Positions 6,227 through 60,413 of a DNA stretch of 64,000 nucleotides are shown piece by piece (the stretch's first letter is position 1; every line of letters begins with the position of its first letter). Position numbers and translations under genes: made by a program. The notes below the pieces were generated by a model. That model did not search any database. It was not told the origin of the DNA and saw only the letters and a program-made list of their open reading frames with translations. The stretch comes from an uncultured Coriobacteriaceae bacterium (GTDB lineage: Bacteria; Actinomycetota; Coriobacteriia; Coriobacteriales; Coriobacteriaceae), in NCBI GenBank assembly GCA_944322305.1, contig CALUOP010000003.1:62001-126000 (forward strand). Direction: 5' to 3'.

Positions 6227-8302
6227 CTACGCCGCCGGCTCCCCGGCCGCGGGATCCGCTTCCGTCTCCTCCGCGCCAGCCTCGGCCGTGCTGCCGTCTT
6301 TCGCCGTCAGGGACGCCACGGTGTAGGCGCCGTTTTCACCTGCATCCTCGACGTACGTGAAGCTGATCTCGTCGCCCGCGCGGTAAGCCACGATGGGAAG
6401 CATCTCCGGCAGCGCGAAGTCATAGATGGCCGGGGCTCCCTCCAGCGTCACATAGAAATGCGAGGTGCCGTCCACCACGGCCTGCGCCATGGTTGCGATG
6501 ACGCCCGAGGCCTCGGCCTCGTTTGCCACCGCGGCGGCATCTTCCTCAGAAAGCAGCCCCTCGCCAGAGAGCTGCGCCAGGTAGTCGTCCTGGCAGGCCG
6601 CCACTGTCTCGCCGGTCGCCACGTTTTGGTACTGCTCGACGTTGATCATGGCGAACATCTTCACCAAACCCGCGTCGTCCTTCATGCTCATGAAGTACGT
6701 GGGTTGCCCGGCGATGTTCAGAAGCAGCGGGAAGGTGGCCTGGTAGCGCAGGTTCTGCAGCTCGCCCTCGGCGCTGGCCATGGCCGAATCCTCGGTAGCC
6801 CCCGCCATGGGGTAGAAGTGCGACTCGCCCGTACGCTGGTTCACCAGGATAAACCCTACGATGGAGTTGTCGGCCGTGACGCTGGTCACGCCGGAGTACA
6901 GGTAGATGTCCTCGCCCTGCGCCAGGTAGTTGTAGCCCAGCTGGCCGTCGGTCCCCGGCGTGGAGCGGACAACGCCCTCCTGGCCGAGCCAGGAGTTGAG
7001 CCAGCCGTTCTGGTACATGCCGCTCCAGTTGTACTGCTGGATGATGAGGTCGGAGGGGTAGGCGCGGTCCACCCAGGTGGGGCAGTCCTCTACGGCGTAG
7101 TCAGCGGTCTCGCCCGTGCAGGCGTTCACCAGCACCACGCGCTGGATGGTGGCGCCGTCAAACAGGCCGATCGTGCGGCGCGTCACCGGGTAGACCCACC
7201 AGGGGTTGCCCTCCTCGTCCAGCTCGAAGGACTTCTGGTCGAACATATACGTGGGGTACGCGAGCTGCGTGTAGCGGTCAACGTTGCGCGCCAGCGGCTC
7301 GGACTCCGAGTACTTGATGCCCTCGTCCAGGCGCACCACCTCGGCCTCCTGCGTCACCATGTCAACCATCACGTAGGCAGGCAGGCCGTCGTCGCGGTTG
7401 GCGAACCACTTGAACAGGTCGGCATACGCCAGCGGGCTCACGCGCACCGGGCGCCCCTGGTAGTTGATCATGCTGTAGGTGTCCGCGATCTCGAACTGGC
7501 TCACGTACTCGGGGATCGATCCCATGGCGCGGTTGCCCAGAAGCACCGCCGACGCGCGGTCGATAACGGGCACCTCGCTGTAGTTGACCTCGGCGATGTC
7601 CTCCTCAAAAACGCCGTCGGTGGTGTTGAGCACCGTGGCATAGCGCTCGGCGTTGCCCGGGATGAAGGGCTGACCGGCCAGAAGCCCGATGAAGAACGCC
7701 GCGATAACCGCCGCCGGGATGTACATGAGGCGCTTGAAAAGCGCGGCGCGCCCGGGATGGCGCACGCTGGCGATGCCGAACGCCGCCATAACGATGAGCG
7801 CCGCCGTGATGATCCAGCCCCACACCTGCTGGCTGCGCAGGTTGATGGCCGGATGGAACCACCAGTAGCAGCCCACAAGCGCCGCCACGGCGATAAGCGC
7901 AAGCGCGATAAGCCCGCGGCGGCTCCACTGCGCTACCCGCCCCCACAGATCCGGGCTGCCCCAGCCGCCGCCGAAGCCGCCGCTCCCGCCAGCGCCGCCC
8001 GCGTGGGGGCGCTGGCCGTGAAAGGCGCCGGAGCCTCCCCCGCCTGCCTTGGCGGAAGCGCGCGTGTGGCGACGTCGCGCCCGGGCGCCGGCGTCCTTCT
8101 CGCCCGCCTCGGCAGAGGCGCGGGCACCGCGCGCAGAAGACGGCGCGTCAGCACCGGAAGAGGCGTCCGCTTCGGGGTCGTCCACCACGGCGTCCACGGG
8201 AATGGCGCCGTCCTCGTCGCGCCCGGCGTCGTCGGGGCGCGGGAAACGCATGCCGAACATGCTGGCTACCAGGTCTTCGAGGTCTTGGTCGCGTTGCGAC
8301 AT
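6227..8302 (-). CDS. Large membrane protein with extracytoplasmic C-terminal domain, function unknown
   Basis: I do not recognise a characterised family. The 691-residue protein has an acidic/Gly-rich disordered N-terminus (about 1-165), three hydrophobic segments at about 170-255 (RGLIALALIAVAALVGCYWW and two more), and a domain of about 420 residues likely outside the membrane, ending in an acidic Ala/Glu tail. The domain is rich in aromatic residues and contains NACTGETADYAVEDCP, with a possible disulfide. The ATG at 8302 was chosen because AAAGGAG lies upstream; the longer frame to 8482 runs through non-coding sequence holding a gene relic. A disordered stretch reads EAGEKDAG, encoded by the dispersed GGGCGAGAAG motif. 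It is monocistronic and converges on the fusion gene. Confidence 0.75.
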   Translation of the reverse strand: MSQRDQDLEDLVASMFGMRFPRPDDAGRDEDGAIPVDAVVDDPEADASSGADAPSSARGARASAEAGEKDAGARARRRHTRASAKAGGGGSGAFHGQRPHAGGAGGSGGFGGGWGSPDLWGRVAQWSRRGLIALALIAVAALVGCYWWFHPAINLRSQQVWGWIITAALIVMAAFGIASVRHPGRAALFKRLMYIPAAVIAAFFIGLLAGQPFIPGNAERYATVLNTTDGVFEEDIAEVNYSEVPVIDRASAVLLGNRAMGSIPEYVSQFEIADTYSMINYQGRPVRVSPLAYADLFKWFANRDDGLPAYVMVDMVTQEAEVVRLDEGIKYSESEPLARNVDRYTQLAYPTYMFDQKSFELDEEGNPWWVYPVTRRTIGLFDGATIQRVVLVNACTGETADYAVEDCPTWVDRAYPSDLIIQQYNWSGMYQNGWLNSWLGQEGVVRSTPGTDGQLGYNYLAQGEDIYLYSGVTSVTADNSIVGFILVNQRTGESHFYPMAGATEDSAMASAEGELQNLRYQATFPLLLNIAGQPTYFMSMKDDAGLVKMFAMINVEQYQNVATGETVAACQDDYLAQLSGEGLLSEEDAAAVANEAEASGVIATMAQAVVDGTSHFYVTLEGAPAIYDFALPEMLPIVAYRAGDEISFTYVEDAGENGAYTVASLTAKDGSTAEAGAEETEADPAAGEPAA

Positions 8303-8560: not shown

Positions 8561-9028
8561 CTACAATTTGGCAAACATACGCGCAGACCCGGGCATATTC
8601 CGGAACCCGTACCGCGCGTAAAACCCATGTGCGGCAGCGTCTACAGGATCCACCACCAACGCCCGCGCGCCGATTTGCTCGGACACCAATTCTGAGCGAT
8701 GCACCGCGTCAAGCAGCAGGTCACGACCCAACCCTCGGCCCTGAAAACGCTGGTCGACGCCCAGCATGCCCAGCAGGATAACCGGAATCTGCTGAGGAGC
8801 GTTCCGCGCTATCCAGCCCGACGTTTCGGCACGTGTGACCGACTGCACGCTTAGCGTATAAAACCCCGCCAACACATCCTCGCAGAAAGTAACGTACACC
8901 ACAGCCGTCCCCGCCGCGCGGGCACCGCGTGCGCGGTGATCCAACCAATCGTCAACCAGACCTACTCCTGAGCAAAAGCCCGCCAGGCTGTCTTCATCCC
9001 GCAAGATGCGCGGACGGGTGAAACTCAT
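8561..9028 (-). CDS. GNAT acetyltransferase toxin (TacT-like)
   Basis: A 155-residue GCN5-related acetyltransferase of the type that acetylates aminoacyl-tRNA in TacA-TacT modules. The acetyl-CoA loop is seen as QRFQGRGLGRDLLLDA, and the C-terminal FYARYGFRNMP carries the Tyr typical of these toxins. I chose the ATG at 9028 because it overlaps the antitoxin stop as ATGA; a GTG three codons upstream is also in frame. It is co-translated with the DUF1778 gene at 9025-9306. Confidence 0.88.
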   Translation of the reverse strand: MSFTRPRILRDEDSLAGFCSGVGLVDDWLDHRARGARAAGTAVVYVTFCEDVLAGFYTLSVQSVTRAETSGWIARNAPQQIPVILLGMLGVDQRFQGRGLGRDLLLDAVHRSELVSEQIGARALVVDPVDAAAHGFYARYGFRNMPGSARMFAKL

Positions 9029-12798: not shown

Positions 12799-13075
12799 AG
12801 CTGCTCCCAAGGTTGTAGGCCAACGTGTCCGCGCGCTTATCCCCGCATGCCGCCGCTGGGCGGACGGCGTGGCGGGCAACAACCTCGATGCTATCGGCCG
12901 CGCCCGCGTCGATGAGAGCGCGCGGCGGCGTTTAACGCGCTGAACACAGCCTGGAAACAGTGGCAACCAACGGGTAACCGCTTTGAAAATGACCGTACAC
13001 GCGCCGGCAAACAAACGGAAACAGGAGCGGGACGGCTGGCAGCGGCACACGGCGCGCAGGCACCGCGGCCTGCCG

Positions 13076-13618
13076 CTATGCCGACGTGCCCGCCTCTGCG
13101 CGCTTGGCCTCGGTGCACGAGAAGAGCGCCCGAGCGTCTCCGGCGGCGCGCTTGCCCAGGTAGCTGCGCACGCGGGCCAGGCGCTCGCGCGTAGAGGCGG
13201 CCAGCGGCTCGGGCAGGTCGTCGGGGGCGAACCAACCCACCGCCAGGCTCTCGTCGTCGTTCACGCGCGGCACGGCGTTGCCGCCCGGAGCAACGCGGCA
13301 CACGAAGAGCAGGTCGAGGTACTGGCACACGTCGCCGTTGGCGTACACGGTGGTGTGGTCGGCGGCCTTTATCGCCGCGAGCTCGCAGGGCACCGCGTCC
13401 ACGCCCGTCTCCTCGGCAACCTCGCGCACCACGGTGTCGGCGGGCTCCTCGCCCGGCTCGTTGATGCCGTACACCAGCGCCCATTCGCCCGTGTCCGCGC
13501 GCCGCCCCATCAGGATACGGCCCGCCTCGTCCTCGACGTAGGCGGTCACGCCCACCAGCCACAGCAGGTCGTGGCCGATCTTCTCGCGCAAGCTTAGGAT
13601 GAAATCAGGCGTAGCCAT
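13076..13618 (-). CDS. NUDIX hydrolase
   Basis: A 180-residue Nudix protein that hydrolyses a nucleoside diphosphate linked to another moiety. The Nudix box GX5EX7REUXEEXGU appears as GINEPGEEPADTVV followed by REVAEETGV. The substrate is not predictable. The ATG at 13618 has AGGAGGGACC upstream. The gene follows the RF-like gene on the same strand, with a REPIN-like inverted repeat in between. Confidence 0.87.
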   Translation of the reverse strand: MATPDFILSLREKIGHDLLWLVGVTAYVEDEAGRILMGRRADTGEWALVYGINEPGEEPADTVVREVAEETGVDAVPCELAAIKAADHTTVYANGDVCQYLDLLFVCRVAPGGNAVPRVNDDESLAVGWFAPDDLPEPLAASTRERLARVRSYLGKRAAGDARALFSCTEAKRAEAGTSA

Positions 13619-21878: not shown

Positions 21879-21944
21879 CGCATGCGCCAGTTTAGGCGGT
21901 GCTTTATTTGGCGCAGTGCTTAATTTGGCGCATGGTGGGACGAA

Positions 21945-22110
21945 GTTCCGCATGCGTTTTGTATCAGCTGCTTGGTTCCGCATGCGTTTTGTAGCAGCCC
22001 GCGCGTTCCGCATGCGTTCTGTATCAGCTGCAAGCCAATAATGGCCGCCAGCCGACACGCGGTGCATGCGGAACCACGCGGTTGATACACAATGCATGCG
22101 CAACGGCGCG
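21945..22110. repeat. 30-bp-period repeat array A
   Basis: This gap of 289 bases between the convergent trmL and thiE genes has no gene. Three tandem 30-bp units start with GTTCCGCATGCGTTTTGTA at 21945, 21975 and 22005. After 22050 two units in the opposite orientation follow (GCGGAACCACGCGG-TTGATACACAATGCAT from about 22069). Reverse-complemented, the first set reads CTGATACAAAACGCATGCGG, which aligns with the TGATACGAA-N-GC box of arrays B and C. Two 17-18 bp copies of TTTATTTGGCGCA lie just left of it. Confidence 0.75.
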
Positions 22111-43229: not shown

Positions 43230-45242
43230 CTACGCGCTGGCGAGCAGCCGCTCGGCGGCGTCCAGCTGATCGTCGGTGCCCATAAGGCCCACCTGGTCAC
43301 CCGGAAGCAGGCGTGTGTCACCCCCGAGCACGAGCGTCACGCAGTCGCCGCGCTTGAGCGAGCTCGCGTTGGCCCCGGTCGCCGCCCGCAGGTTGAGCTC
43401 GGCAAGCGTCCGACCGGCCGCCGCGCTCCCCTCGCCCACCGCGACCCAGCGCAGGCCCACGTCGTTCATCGAGGCCAGCATGTTGTCCAACGCCAGCCGG
43501 CGCTTGGCGCGCGCGGTGTCGGCAAGCGCCTCGTACCCGCTCGCGCGCAAGTCGTTGGCGTAGCCATGGATCTGCCGCGGGCGGTACCCCAGGTCCGCGA
43601 GCGCGTGCGCCATCAGCTCGATGCCGCCCTCCAGCTCGGGTCGCACAACGTCGTCGGCACCCGCGGCCACCAGCGCCTCAACCGCGCTGTCGGTCTCCGC
43701 GCGCCCCACGATCCGCAGGCCCGCCGACGCGGCCCGCGCGTCGCGCGCAATCTTCTCAGCCGAGGCCTCCTGACGCGTGGCCACCACGAGCACCCGCGCC
43801 GCCTCCAGGTGCGCATGCGCCAGGATCTCGGAATTCGCCGCGTCGCCCACGAGCACCGCCAACCCTTCCGCCTCGGCCTGCTCGGCCGTGGAGAGGTCGC
43901 GCTCAACCACCAGGCATGGGACCTCGAGCCGCTGCAGCACCTCGGCCACGCACCGCCCGGCGCTGCCGTACCCCACCACAACCACGTGGTTGGCAAGCGC
44001 ACCCTCTGCCGGCGGCTCGATCACGTGCGCGTGCCGGTCGTACAGCGCCCGCAGGCGCGGGTGACGCTCAAACAGGCGCTCGAGCGGCGCCACGCTCTTG
44101 AACACGAAGCTGTTGAGCGCGATGCTGATCACCGCCGCGCCCAAGATCACCGTGTACTGGTCCTGCGAAAGAACCCCGAGCGCCATGCCGGTCTGGCCGA
44201 TGATGAAGCTGAACTCGCCGATCTGCGAAAGCCCCGCCGCCACCGTGAGCATGGTTGAAAGCCCGGCCGCCATCACGGCGCCGAGCGCCATGTTGATGAC
44301 CCACTTCCCCACCATGATGAGCGCCACCAGGGCGATAAGCTCGGGCAGGTGCGCCGCCAGCGTGGCGGGGTTCACCATCATGCCCACCGACGCGAAGAAG
44401 ATGATGGAGAACAGGTCTTGGAACGGAATGGCCTCGGCCGCCACCCGGTGCGAGAGCGCCGAGCCGCTCACCACCACGCCGGCCAAAAATGCCCCCAGCG
44501 CCACCGACACGTCGAAGAACACCGCGGCCGCCATGGCCGTGCCCAGGGCGATAACCACCACCGCCAGCTGGAAGAGCTCGCGCGGGCAGAAGCGCGCGAT
44601 GCGGCTAAGCAGCCACGGGAGCAGGCGCGAACCCGCCACCAGCATCAGCGCCACGAACCCCACCGTCTTGAGCAGCGCCTCGGCAAGCCCCAGGGCAAGC
44701 GCGGCGCCGGAGGTCTCGCCGGGGCCGAACACCAGCGGCAGCACCACCAAGATCACGATGGTGGCCAGATCCTCAACGATGAGCCAGCCCGTGGCCACGC
44801 GCCCGCCTTGGCTTTGGTAGAGCCCGGCGTCGGTGAGGTTGCGGATAAGCACCACCGTCGAGGCGATGGAAACCGAAAGCCCCAGCATGACGCCGGCTTC
44901 GGGACTCCAGCCAAACGCCCGCGCCAAGGCGTAGCCTGCTGCCGTTCCCGCTGCGATCTGCAGCACGGCGCCGGGCACCGCGATGCCCTTGACCTCGGAA
45001 AGGTCCTTGAGCGAAAAGTGCAGGCCCGTGCCGAACATCATGAACATGACGCCCACCTCGGCAAGCTGGCTCATGGCGTGCGAGTCGCCCACGAAACCGG
45101 GCGTGAACGGACTCACCACCAACCCGCCGACGAGATACCCCACGATGGGCGGCAGACGGAAGGCCCGCGCAACGAGCCCGCCGGCAAACGCGGCGACAAG
45201 CGCGAGGACAAAGGTCATGAGCAAAACGGTATCTCCGTGCAT
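43230..45242 (-). CDS. CPA2-family cation:proton antiporter with RCK domains (KefB/YbaL-like)
   Basis: A 670-residue K+ or Na+/H+ antiporter. Residues 1-385 form about 12-13 membrane helices with VGYLVGGLVVSPFTPGF, VGVMFMMFGTGLHFS and VSIASTVVLIRNLTDAG. Residues about 415-530 are a TrkA-N/RCK domain (VVVVGYGSAGRCVAEVLQRLEVPCLVVERD), and 580-668 a TrkA-C domain (GRTLAELNLRAATGANA ... LPGDQVGLMGT). Such proteins usually regulate K+ efflux or pH. Its upstream region leads into repeat array B. Confidence 0.9.
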   Translation of the reverse strand: MHGDTVLLMTFVLALVAAFAGGLVARAFRLPPIVGYLVGGLVVSPFTPGFVGDSHAMSQLAEVGVMFMMFGTGLHFSLKDLSEVKGIAVPGAVLQIAAGTAAGYALARAFGWSPEAGVMLGLSVSIASTVVLIRNLTDAGLYQSQGGRVATGWLIVEDLATIVILVVLPLVFGPGETSGAALALGLAEALLKTVGFVALMLVAGSRLLPWLLSRIARFCPRELFQLAVVVIALGTAMAAAVFFDVSVALGAFLAGVVVSGSALSHRVAAEAIPFQDLFSIIFFASVGMMVNPATLAAHLPELIALVALIMVGKWVINMALGAVMAAGLSTMLTVAAGLSQIGEFSFIIGQTGMALGVLSQDQYTVILGAAVISIALNSFVFKSVAPLERLFERHPRLRALYDRHAHVIEPPAEGALANHVVVVGYGSAGRCVAEVLQRLEVPCLVVERDLSTAEQAEAEGLAVLVGDAANSEILAHAHLEAARVLVVATRQEASAEKIARDARAASAGLRIVGRAETDSAVEALVAAGADDVVRPELEGGIELMAHALADLGYRPRQIHGYANDLRASGYEALADTARAKRRLALDNMLASMNDVGLRWVAVGEGSAAAGRTLAELNLRAATGANASSLKRGDCVTLVLGGDTRLLPGDQVGLMGTDDQLDAAERLLASA

Positions 45243-45729
45243 AGGGCCTCCTTAGAGGTCGTGAACGACAGCAAGCGAACGGAGACGAACGAAGCGCGGA
45301 ATGCGGGCGGGGCGGCAGCTTGCCTTGGGCGCACCGGCAACGCGGGAGCGGCCGGATACCCGTCGGGAGGGAAACGTTCCGGCAGGGATGCGCTCCGAAC
45401 CGTGCCAGCGGGCGTGCAGCTGCTTGCGTGAGAGAAGCCCAGAGCAGTCACCGCCCTTGTTGCCGCAGACGCTTGCCAAGCGCGCGTCCGGGCGCCGCAT
45501 ACAAGAAGGGCGGACCTTGCCGGTGCAAAGGCCCGCCCGCGCAAACGAACGAATCAACGCATAGGTTTGATACCCAGGGCACGACACTTTAAGCGCATGG
45601 CTTCCGACTAGACGGTGCGGCGCAGAGGTGCATGCGTGCGGGCACCTGCCAGACGTGCCGGCAAGTTGGACGAAAAGAGCGCGGACGCGGCGGGCAGTGG
45701 CGGGCAGACATGGCGGGCAGACATGGTGG
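45243..45729. other. Leader of the antiporter gene and edge of repeat array B
   Basis: Gene-free. It holds an imperfect hairpin at about 45508-45538 (GGGCGGACC...GGCCCGCCC). From about 45670 30-bp-spaced GGGCA/GGCGG units begin to show, grading into array B. Open frames here are side effects of the repeat period. Confidence 0.4.
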
Positions 45730-46365
45730 GCAATCATCGCATCCGTCCGAACCTGGCAAGCAATGACGGCATCCACGCAAACGCGACGGGCAACGGTCGC
45801 GCTCGCTCCGGGCGCGGTTAGCAAATCGCCCGCTCAAACGAACGCGGCGAGCGAAATGCGAGCCAATGCGAAACCCGCGGGCGAGAATCTCGCTGACACG
45901 AACCCGCCGGGCAAGCATGCCACTCATACGAATGGCATGCGCAAGAACGTCACTCATACGAACCCATTGGGCGAGAACGTCACTCATACGAACGGTTTGG
46001 GCGAAAAACACATCGATACGAAGCCGTTGCGCGAAAAGCGCACTCGTACGAGCGAGCTTCTCGCCCAACGCGCGCCGTGGGCCGAGCTTGGCGAGAAAAC
46101 GCCAGGTAAGCGGGAAGGCCGGACCACGATGTGCACCCGCGTGCTCGGAGCACCCTTCGTATCAACGCATTTTTCGCCCAACAGGCTCGTATCAATTCGA
46201 TTTTCGCCCAAACCTGTCGTATGAGTGTCGTTCTCGCCCAATGGCGTCGTATCGGTGTAATTCTCGCCCAACGGCGTTGTATCAGTGTCGTTCTCGCCCA
46301 GGCTGTGCGCACCAGCGTCGTTTTCGCCGTCCAGGCCGCATCGGCGCCGCTCTCGCCCGACGCGC
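45730..46365. repeat. 30-bp-period mirrored repeat array B
   Basis: Units start every 30 bases from 45881 (45881, 45911, 45941, 45971, 46001, 46031) with more decayed units back to about 45730. The pattern is GGGCGAGAA, about 6 variable bases, TCATACGAA, about 6 variable bases. From 46156 the same unit runs in the opposite orientation (46156, 46186, 46216, 46246, 46276, 46306, 46336), reading (T)TCGTATCA...TTCTCGCCC. Units near the centre are best conserved. The centre (46067-46155) holds the palindrome GTGCTC-G-GAGCAC. Both halves give decapeptide repeats (such as LGENVTHTNP) on either strand, but no ribosome site or intact gene explains them. Confidence 0.85.
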
Positions 46366-46565: not shown

Positions 46566-46982
46566 TTGAGCCGTTCCCGCCTGCAGCTCAAGCTTGGCGA
46601 CAAGGTGCTTATCGCCCTGGTTGCCTGCGCGCTCGCACTCGGCGGTGCCTATGCCGCGTGGCGCGCGCTCGCCGCCCCGTCAACCCCGGCCGCCGCGAAC
46701 GCAGACGCCAAGGACCTCGTGGTGGTCTGCCAGAGCAAAGACGGCTTTTATCGCGTGGATCCTCTGGATACCGACGCCGCGTACACCGTCTCCACACCGC
46801 ACGGCTACAATAACGTGACCATTTCAGGCGGCACGGTTGACGTAACCTCCGCCGACTGCGACAACCAGGTGTGCGTGGACAGCGCGCCCATCTCCCAGCC
46901 CGGGGAGCAGATCGTGTGCCTGCCGCACGAGGTGGTGCTCGAGGTTGCGGCAAGCGCCGACGACGTGGCGCCCCTGTCCTAG
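46566..46982 (+). CDS. NusG domain II (DUF1310-type) membrane-anchored protein
   Basis: A 138-residue protein with one N-terminal membrane anchor (DKVLIALVACALALGGAYAAW) and a small extracytoplasmic NusG-II domain with the signature CDNQVCVDSAPISQPGEQIVCLPHEVVLEV. These are common in Firmicutes and Coriobacteria; the function is unknown. I prefer the TTG at 46566 with GGGAGGACC upstream. An ATG at 46479 lies within the likely -10 box. The motif GGGCGAGAAG follows the stop by 5 bases. Confidence 0.75.
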   Translation: MSRSRLQLKLGDKVLIALVACALALGGAYAAWRALAAPSTPAAANADAKDLVVVCQSKDGFYRVDPLDTDAAYTVSTPHGYNNVTISGGTVDVTSADCDNQVCVDSAPISQPGEQIVCLPHEVVLEVAASADDVAPLS

Positions 46983-52949: not shown

Positions 52950-53585
52950 CATGCGACAGCCGTATGCCGGCGAGGGCGACTGCCCGCAGGGTGACCCCAC
53001 GCCGGCGAAACGCCCCGCAGGATGGGCCTTACGCCGGTACGACGCCCCGCGCGGTGCAAGCCCCGCTCCACCCGCGTCATCCCCTCTTGTTGCGCGCAAG
53101 CCTGCACACATGCCTTTCTTGCACGAGCGCAATGCGCGAGAGCCGTGCTCATACGGACCCAGTGCGCGAAAACCATGCCCATACGAGCATGATGCGCGAA
53201 ACCTTCACTGATACGAAAGCGTTGGGCGAGAATCACGTTCGTACGGACCCGATTCTGTCATCTAAGGCCGGAATACCGCTTGAGCCCAACTAACAGCTGG
53301 CCGATAACCGCCCGTTGCCCGCACAAACGACATCTAACAGGGAAGCTCTTTTCGTATCAGTAACGTTTTCGCCCAGACAACTCGTATCAGTAACGTTTTC
53401 GCCCAAGCGCTTCGTATCAGCGATGTTCTCGCCCAAAGCGTTCGTATGGGTGCGGCTTTCGCCCGACGCGCTTCTTATGAATGCGGCTCTCGCCCATGCG
53501 CTTCGTATGGATGCTTTTTTCGCCCAAGCCACTCGTATGAGGTCGTTTTTCGCCCAACACACTCGTACGGGGTTGTTTTTCGCAC
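52950..53585. repeat. 30-bp-period mirrored repeat array C (53134-53583)
   Basis: The gene-free gap between tRNA-Glu and a tetR gene. Four units in one orientation start at 53134, 53164, 53194 and 53224 (GCGCGAAA...CTGATACGAA...). From 53351 about eight units run the other way (53351, 53381, 53411, 53441, then about 30-31 apart to 53583), reading CTCGTATCAGTAACGTTTTC then GCCCA. The last unit ends 3 bases from the tetR stop codon. Between the halves, 53313 reads GTTGCCCGCACAAACGACATC-like, which is an array D unit. The region before 53130 has three looser GCCGGCGA/GCCGG repeats. Confidence 0.85.
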
Positions 53586-54143
53586 CTACAAGTGTGCGTT
53601 GCACACGTCGTTCACGATGAAGGGGACGAACTCGGCGATGGTCATGCCCTGTGGGTCGCGCAGCCACGCCACCACCACCGACAACAGGCCCGAAAGGTAA
53701 AACTCGTGCAGAAGGGCCGCCTCACGCGGGGAAAGCGCCCGCTCGGACACGAGGAACCGATCCAGGATGGGTGCCAGCACTTGCTTGAACCGCGAGGCAA
53801 AGGCCGGGTCGCCGCGGTCGCCCAACAGCACCAGGAACTGCGCGCTGTAGCGGCGCGCAAGCTCCAGGAACACGCCCATGTGCTCGGAGAAGTCCGGCTC
53901 GCTTTCGCGCAGGAGACGGCGATTGATGAGCTGTTCCAGCACGTCGAGCAGGTTGTCCTCTATCTGGGCCAGCACGTCGTAGATGTCTTTAAAGTACAGG
54001 TAAAAGGTGGCGCGGTTGTAGCCGGCGCGATCGGTGATCTGCTTTACCGTGATCTTCTCGATCGGCTCCTGGGCGTACAGCTCCCAAAACGCCTGGCGGA
54101 TGTTGGCCTTGGTCTGCTCGGTTACCTGCGGCTGCTTGTTCAT
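53586..54143 (-). CDS. TetR/AcrR-family regulator of the adjacent ABC exporter
   Basis: A 185-residue regulator with the helix-turn-helix ITVKQITDRAGYNRATFYLYFKDIYD and a TetR_C-type ligand domain. It is divergent from the ABC exporter genes at 54421 and 55138, with two palindromic sites in between, so it probably represses them. The ATG at 54143 follows ACGGAGTGCG; the frame extends upstream without a better start. Confidence 0.87.
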   Translation of the reverse strand: MNKQPQVTEQTKANIRQAFWELYAQEPIEKITVKQITDRAGYNRATFYLYFKDIYDVLAQIEDNLLDVLEQLINRRLLRESEPDFSEHMGVFLELARRYSAQFLVLLGDRGDPAFASRFKQVLAPILDRFLVSERALSPREAALLHEFYLSGLLSVVVAWLRDPQGMTIAEFVPFIVNDVCNAHL

Positions 54144-60219: not shown

Positions 60220-60351
60220 GGTTGCACTCCTTGCCTGCCCGTGTTGCTCGGTTGAGACTTTACCAAAACGAGAAAGCCCCGGCCGAGAAGCACGCGCCCC
60301 GCACCCGTCGCACGCCCGCAGGCCCCTGCCCGCAGACCGCTGCCTGCCAGC

Positions 60352-60405
60352 CGTTTGCGCCAACCGTCCCGTTTGCGCCAACCGCCCCGTTTGCGCCAAC
60401 CGTCC
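60352..60405. repeat. Three 18-bp tandem repeats
   Basis: CGTTTGCGCCAACCGTCC, CGTTTGCGCCAACCGCCC and CGTTTGCGCCAACCGTCC follow each other without spacer in the manZ-DUF956 gap. The unit length differs from the 30-bp arrays. Confidence 0.8.
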
Positions 60406-60413
60406 CGCCCTAT

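Follow-up and report, generated by a model that had tools for sequence, protein, structure and literature searches.

Bacterial dispersed intergenic repeats are usually explained as transposase by-products. A different kind of repeat is represented by the ParR-parC iteron arrays, in which rows of short sites flank a central segment and are bound by an oligomeric protein; typically, there is one such locus per replicon, located beside its own par genes. According to the published summary, the BrickBuilt MITE of Porphyromonas gingivalis occurs in 19 copies in a single genome, is always intergenic, is built from tandem short units and has a limited host range; its units are 23 nt long without spacers, and leader and tail subunits as well as small inverted-repeat ends are described (PMC4596501). 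REP, BIME and REPIN sequences, as far as the accessible parts of the reports go, are abundant, extragenic, species-specific and inverted, and protein-binding or chromosome-organising roles have been suggested for them; REPs are palindromes of 20–40 bp, and BIMEs alternate in orientation (PMC2817692, PMC3116915).

In this work, we analyzed a window of 64,000 nucleotides from an uncultured Coriobacteriaceae bacterium, together with its own and related genomes. The mirrored arrays of 30-bp units found there suggest a family of protein-binding DNA elements that has so far gone unrecognised and in which the unit differs between species.

The window arrays

At 45661–46365, units follow each other at a 30-bp step, in minus orientation on the left and in plus orientation on the right. 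A sequence-only reading of the window had counted thirteen mirrored units here, which is borne out: the PWM finds nine minus units, the outermost decayed, and eight plus units, TRF and a repeat finder agree with it, and with up to 3 mismatches allowed, TCGTATNNNNNNNNTTYTCGCCC was matched 31 times across the window, where 1.7 ± 1.4 matches would be expected and 0 of 100 shuffles reached the observed number. The left arm starts with decayed outer units (45661–45871, minus strand; PWM starts at 45661, 45721 and 45842), followed by six good 30-bp units reading outward (45872–46051, minus strand; pattern matches and PWM), which start at 45872, 45902, 45932, 45962, 45992 and 46022. An inverted unit on the plus strand (46044–46073, step 22) overlaps the innermost left unit at TCGTACGA in a palindromic junction. 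This junction, here at 46044–46051, forms one edge of the core and recurs at most other loci. Core sequence and distance analysis place a core of 105 bp, containing CGCCAGGTAAGC, between the arms (46052–46156), and the start-to-start distance of 135 bp lies on the 10.5-bp ladder described below. The right arm (46157–46365, plus strand; pattern matches and PWM) comprises seven 30-bp units starting at 46157, 46187, 46217, 46247, 46277, 46307 and 46336, of which the outer ones are decayed. The proposal that the mirror is centred on GTGCTC-G-GAGCAC (46141–46153) could not be upheld, since this sequence is absent from the other cores compared and the TCGTACGA pair recurs instead. The flanking genes encode a Na+/H+ antiporter with TrkA domains (43230–45242, minus strand; PF00999, PF02254, PF02080) and a NusG domain II protein (46569–46982, plus strand; PF07009).

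The sequence-only reading had overlooked a same-family array at 53127–53592 and a different mirrored family at 21946–22103. The former has a left arm of 4 units (53127–53246, minus strand), a core (53247–53351, start-to-start 135 bp) that is related to the core of L045, and a right arm of 8 units (53352–53592, plus strand), both arms being supported by pattern matches and PWM. The latter, also with a 30-bp unit (TTCCGCATGCATTTTGTATCAGC), is laid out as >>> 38 <<< and has nine loci in the genome, with the same 38-bp centre in 8 of them. We also observed that this centre is palindromic, with stem bases changing, and that a short inverted repeat, CATGCGCCAGTTTAGGCGGTGC / GCAGTGCTTAATTTGGCGCATG (21881–21934), directly adjoins the array. 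Elsewhere in the window, at 60351–60407, lies an 18-bp tandem repeat, CCGTTTGCGCCAACCGTC, with 3.2 copies at 94%.

Occurrence in related genomes

In its own genome (G000), the two-box pattern matches 223 times versus 8 times for the reversed pattern. The matches listed correspond to at least about 19 loci, two of them being the window arrays at 45661–46365 and 53127–53592; a few weak loci may lie beyond these matches. In G003, another species of the genus, about 17 loci were located, and allowing no more than 1 mismatch gave 97 matches. All 37 loci that we laid out (19 from G000, 17 from G003 and 1 from G002) have the order <<< core >>>, and stray units are few. The other two species, G001 and G002, show the mirrored architecture with altered unit sequences. 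Here, a sequence-free lag scan revealed mirrored arrays in both genomes, and in the 343 kb of G001 scanned, repeats recurred at a lag of 30 more often than at any other; some further lag-30 hits in the G001 and G002 samples are protein-coding repeats. The G001 unit TAGGATCGACGNNNTTYTCGCC, with 74 matches versus 3 for the control, can be aligned to the unit of the window without gaps. When 299 genomes of the order were searched with a model built on a tandem pair of units, multiple matches were found in this genus only, in all four of its species; ten further genomes had one or two weak, unexamined hits each.

A species from another genus of the same family (G008) possesses an unrelated unit, GTCCGAATNTCGCCCGANAACGC, at 28 mirrored 30-bp loci, and the centre step is exactly 48 bp at every one of them. 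The pattern of this unit was found in none of its four congeners. Samples of G004–G007 (80 kb each) and smaller ones from other families, all of limited size, yielded no mirrored 30-bp array that was convincing. The sequence-only reading had named a mirrored arrangement at loci without homology as its own test for a functional element; across five genomes, dozens of loci show it. In viral contigs, two unit patterns, searched as exact patterns only, gave 0 hits, and a phage origin was rejected on these grounds. G002 contains a further type of mirrored element, TTCTCCCAAGCCGGGACGTTGCGC (L102:4290–4770, 7060–7480 and 12810–13260; L096:8190–9300), with CAGGTAA in its centre and three copies within 9 kb.

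Genomic context and dispersal

The arrays are intergenic and found in every gene orientation, i.e., tandem, divergent and convergent, which rules out a strict orientation rule; some even lie within operons (hypC–hypF, hemD–hemC, purF–purM). Apart from these operon genes, the flanks include such ordinary genes as those for CTP synthase, ileS–spoU, ftsY–ffh and ribosomal protein L10. The dnaA gene of G000 (G000:C3:293 kb) is more than 100 kb away from the C3 arrays found, hence a segregation role is without positional support. Three of the G008 arrays are found no further than about 30 kb from dnaA, but most are more distant. An origin-linked placement was rejected accordingly.

The surroundings of individual arrays showed some further features. 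A few cores from different species contain a CG-centred palindrome, GRTAAARCGTTTA (L254:3101–3113, L070:9069–9081, L038, L059 and L063), which we take to resemble LacI-type operators. One protein gene is flanked by an array on each side, in G000 (L051:7652–10455) as well as in G003 (L054:7966–10296); the 371-aa protein of G000 has no Pfam match, and the gene was set aside as a candidate trans-factor. In G002, an exact 61-bp duplication beside an array (L070:8645–8705 and 8830–8890) looks like a partial tRNA copy consisting of the tRNA 3' end and terminator.

Nine elements have one core type in common, most of them at unrelated sites, and two further pairs within a genome are alike. The purF–purM gap is filled by an array in G000 and G003 and is empty in G001. 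Moreover, a 534-bp array in G001 corresponds to an empty site in G002 with near-identical flanks; gain and loss are indistinguishable for this pair. At hypC–hypF, the G003 core has to be turned around with respect to the genes before it matches that of G000 (score 101 vs 23, with shuffles reaching at most 52); of the other orthologous pairs, two are collinear and three too diverged to judge. Shared cores at unrelated sites, together with the clean filled/empty pair, show that these elements disperse, each being gained or lost in its entirety.

The shared core type, the filled and empty sites and the inverted hypC–hypF core would also be in agreement with non-autonomous, MITE-like mobile elements. 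The protein reading the unit would then be a transposase or recombinase, and any effect on the chromosome a by-product. We keep this as a serious but doubtful possibility. Dispersed non-coding intergenic copies are a MITE feature that the arrays do meet; defined terminal inverted repeats are not, as the outer ends are decayed, the arms unequal, the elements variable in length and without a fixed terminal sequence. The filled site (GGCGCG, 534 bp, CGCGTTC) can be compared with its empty counterpart GGCGCGCACGTTC, at one site only, and no target-site duplication is demonstrable in this otherwise clean pair, nor did the part of G001 examined contain a near-identical source copy. Y1 transposase genes (PF01797), the one transposase family searched for, do not point to a mobilising enzyme either: no units of F1, F2 or G008 lie within 1.5 kb of any of 8 loci from seven genomes, and the gene is present in G000, G003 and G008 and gave no match in the array-bearing G001 and G002. 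An association of the REP/RAYT type was rejected because these loci have no units nearby and RAYT presence does not track array presence. The arrays had initially been set apart from REP, and the distinction stands, as the units are non-palindromic and the Y1 transposase genes have no adjoining units. The single Y1_Tnp gene of the own genome (G000:C4:265091–265420, L227) has a RAYT-like size.

Unit sequence and arm evolution

From array-bearing stretches of two genomes, an iterated position matrix gave the unit consensus TCGTATGAGYGCNNTTYTCGCCCANNNNNY, with 452 hits versus 22 for the reversed matrix. The consensus comprises box 1, TCGTAT-GAGYGC, and box 2, TTYTCGCCC, and describes oriented sites of about 23 bp at a 30-bp pitch. 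It is non-palindromic; palindromy exists only between the arms. Most positions of both boxes carry 0.8–1.9 bits, in contrast to 0.1–0.3 bits for the last six positions, i.e., the spacer. Between loci, identity is 0.73 for boxes and near background for spacers, in agreement with the conserved boxes and variable 6-base spacers first noticed in the window. Adjacent spacers are slightly more alike than background (0.41 vs 0.31), with boxes at 0.73–0.78. Since the spacers have diverged and the boxes have stayed at this level, most units look like old duplicates in which the boxes were retained. Box conservation could partly be due to homogenisation between copies instead of selection.

Unit scores fall outward, from a mean of 32 near the centre to 21 at rank 10 (36 loci), in agreement with the outward decay already described for the window. 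The related suggestion that arrays grow internally was correct insofar as recent duplications are found inside the arms: in 19 of 251 adjacent pairs, the spacers agree at 5 or more of their 6 bases, with about 3 such pairs expected by our own estimate. However, they are spread over ranks 1–8 and not restricted to the centre. Ongoing duplication and decayed outer units might also be all that there is, i.e., passive tandem duplications that decay without any binder or function. We find this improbable, given boxes that mostly hold 0.9–1.9 bits per position next to near-random spacers, and given that mirrored arrays whose centres are quantised or invariant recur with different units in several genomes.

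Distance between the arms

In the main family, the start-to-start distances of the innermost opposed units are 92, 113, 124, 134–136, 144–147, 155–158, 165–166 and 188–189 bp. Taken separately, G000 and G003 both give 10.5 bp as the best period, and phasing over 37 loci gave R = 0.83, which was not reached in any of 5000 permutations. After reduction to a single locus for each core family, the remaining 25 loci gave R = 0.846, again highest at 10.5 bp, and a Rayleigh p of about 2e-8; the latter is approximate because loci may share descent unseen by core similarity. In G001, centre distances of 41, 51, 61, 115 and 146 bp gave R = 0.95, and anomalies of 41, 52 and 63 bp within its arms equal 30 plus 11, 22 and 33. 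The helical repeat of B-DNA is 10.5 bp. From the quantised distances we infer that the arms are kept in register with each other along double-stranded DNA, and the quantisation, although derived from sequence alone, points to a protein complex on it. Helical phasing of the arms, a feature of protein-binding phased arrays, is thus present. The sequence-only reading had sought such phasing in the 30-bp step as near three helical turns; the step amounts to 2.86 turns, and the clear phasing, at 10.5 bp, exists between the arms.

A transcribed array might alternatively form one giant RNA hairpin, as had been considered from the outset, and might then terminate transcription, be a site for RNase III or stabilise RNA. 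Arms that are about 71% complementary, the location of some arrays within operons and a 38-bp centre in the second family that is able to form a stem closed by an A/T-rich loop could all be explained in this way. However, paired arms would require complementary spacers of the same rank, and left/right complementarity is 0.317 compared with 0.306 between unrelated loci. Furthermore, a single-stranded loop needs no 10.5-bp phase between the arms, and Rfam at gathering thresholds shows a tRNA only in the whole window and nothing at 45661–46365. We hence disfavour the hairpin and give it very little credence. A decapeptide-repeat protein, also raised earlier and superficially suggested by 30 = 3 × 10 and several open frames on both strands, can practically be dismissed, as by our own arithmetic the information content lacks three-base periodicity, the frame is lost at steps of 22, 29 and 31, and the arms lie on opposite strands in arrays of every gene context.

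Proposed function and comparison with known systems

Our preferred reading, in which we place about even confidence, is that the arrays are dispersed intergenic protein-binding platforms with arms joined across the core, where both the joining of the arms and the protein are inferred. Each element would be a double-stranded platform whose two arms face away from a short core or dyad, as in the observed architecture. A so far unidentified oligomeric DNA-binding protein could coat both arms and join them across the core; arm-to-arm distances out of helical register would consequently be selected against, which would account for the phasing measured here. The elements form a non-coding repeat family scattered between genes, come and go as whole units, and grow by tandem duplication of units with conserved boxes. 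The change of unit sequence between species, itself observed, would be expected with a co-evolving binding protein. As to the effect, which is likewise inferred, we assume local looping or nucleoid organisation, and regulation through the core is possible. The data thus favour the multimeric DNA binder initially preferred over CRISPR and REP, with mirrored arrays at dozens of loci spread over five genomes; the binder itself has not been shown. Evidence against a platform comes from the unrelated housekeeping flanks, so that no regulon is visible, and from the 30-bp step, which is not a whole number of turns.

Sequence comparison alone thus yields a physical signature of a protein complex on double-stranded DNA, the 10.5-bp quantisation of the arms, in two species with a common unit and in a third whose unit differs. 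The mirrored 30-bp design is seen again in a second genus, there with an unrelated unit. Within one bacterial family there is hence a natural series of repeat/binder pairs that may co-evolve, and the unknown array-binding protein could be found directly by pull-down.

No description of these elements was found in the open-access literature searched. Within it, and as far as its abstract allows a comparison, the BrickBuilt MITE is the closest described element: like the arrays, it is dispersed and intergenic, consists of tandem short units and has a copy number of about 19 and a limited host range. The abstract, however, makes no mention of mirrored arms, a phased core or species-specific replacement of the unit (PMC4596501). 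With REP and BIME, to the extent that the accessible descriptions show, the arrays share abundance, extragenic location, species specificity and inverted arrangements; in contrast to them, array units are non-palindromic, and orientation switches only once, at the centre. Constant boxes alternating with variable spacers are reminiscent of CRISPR, but spacers of about 6 nt instead of long unique ones, and mirrored arms, separate the two, as was noticed early on; among 30 annotated flanking genes, Pfam named no cas gene, without a cas-specific search. Similar in layout are the rows of short sites around a central segment in ParR-parC, whereas the arrays occupy about 20 dispersed loci with inverted arms and have no par genes among the annotated flanking genes. 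We may speculate, and only tentatively, that the arrays represent an undescribed class of nucleoprotein elements, in which a lineage-specific oligomer would assemble on mirrored arrays at about 20–30 sites, bridge their arms in register and co-evolve with the unit. In spirit, this would resemble a centromere-like or nucleoid-organising system that is dispersed over the chromosome and, in addition, spreads within its genome.
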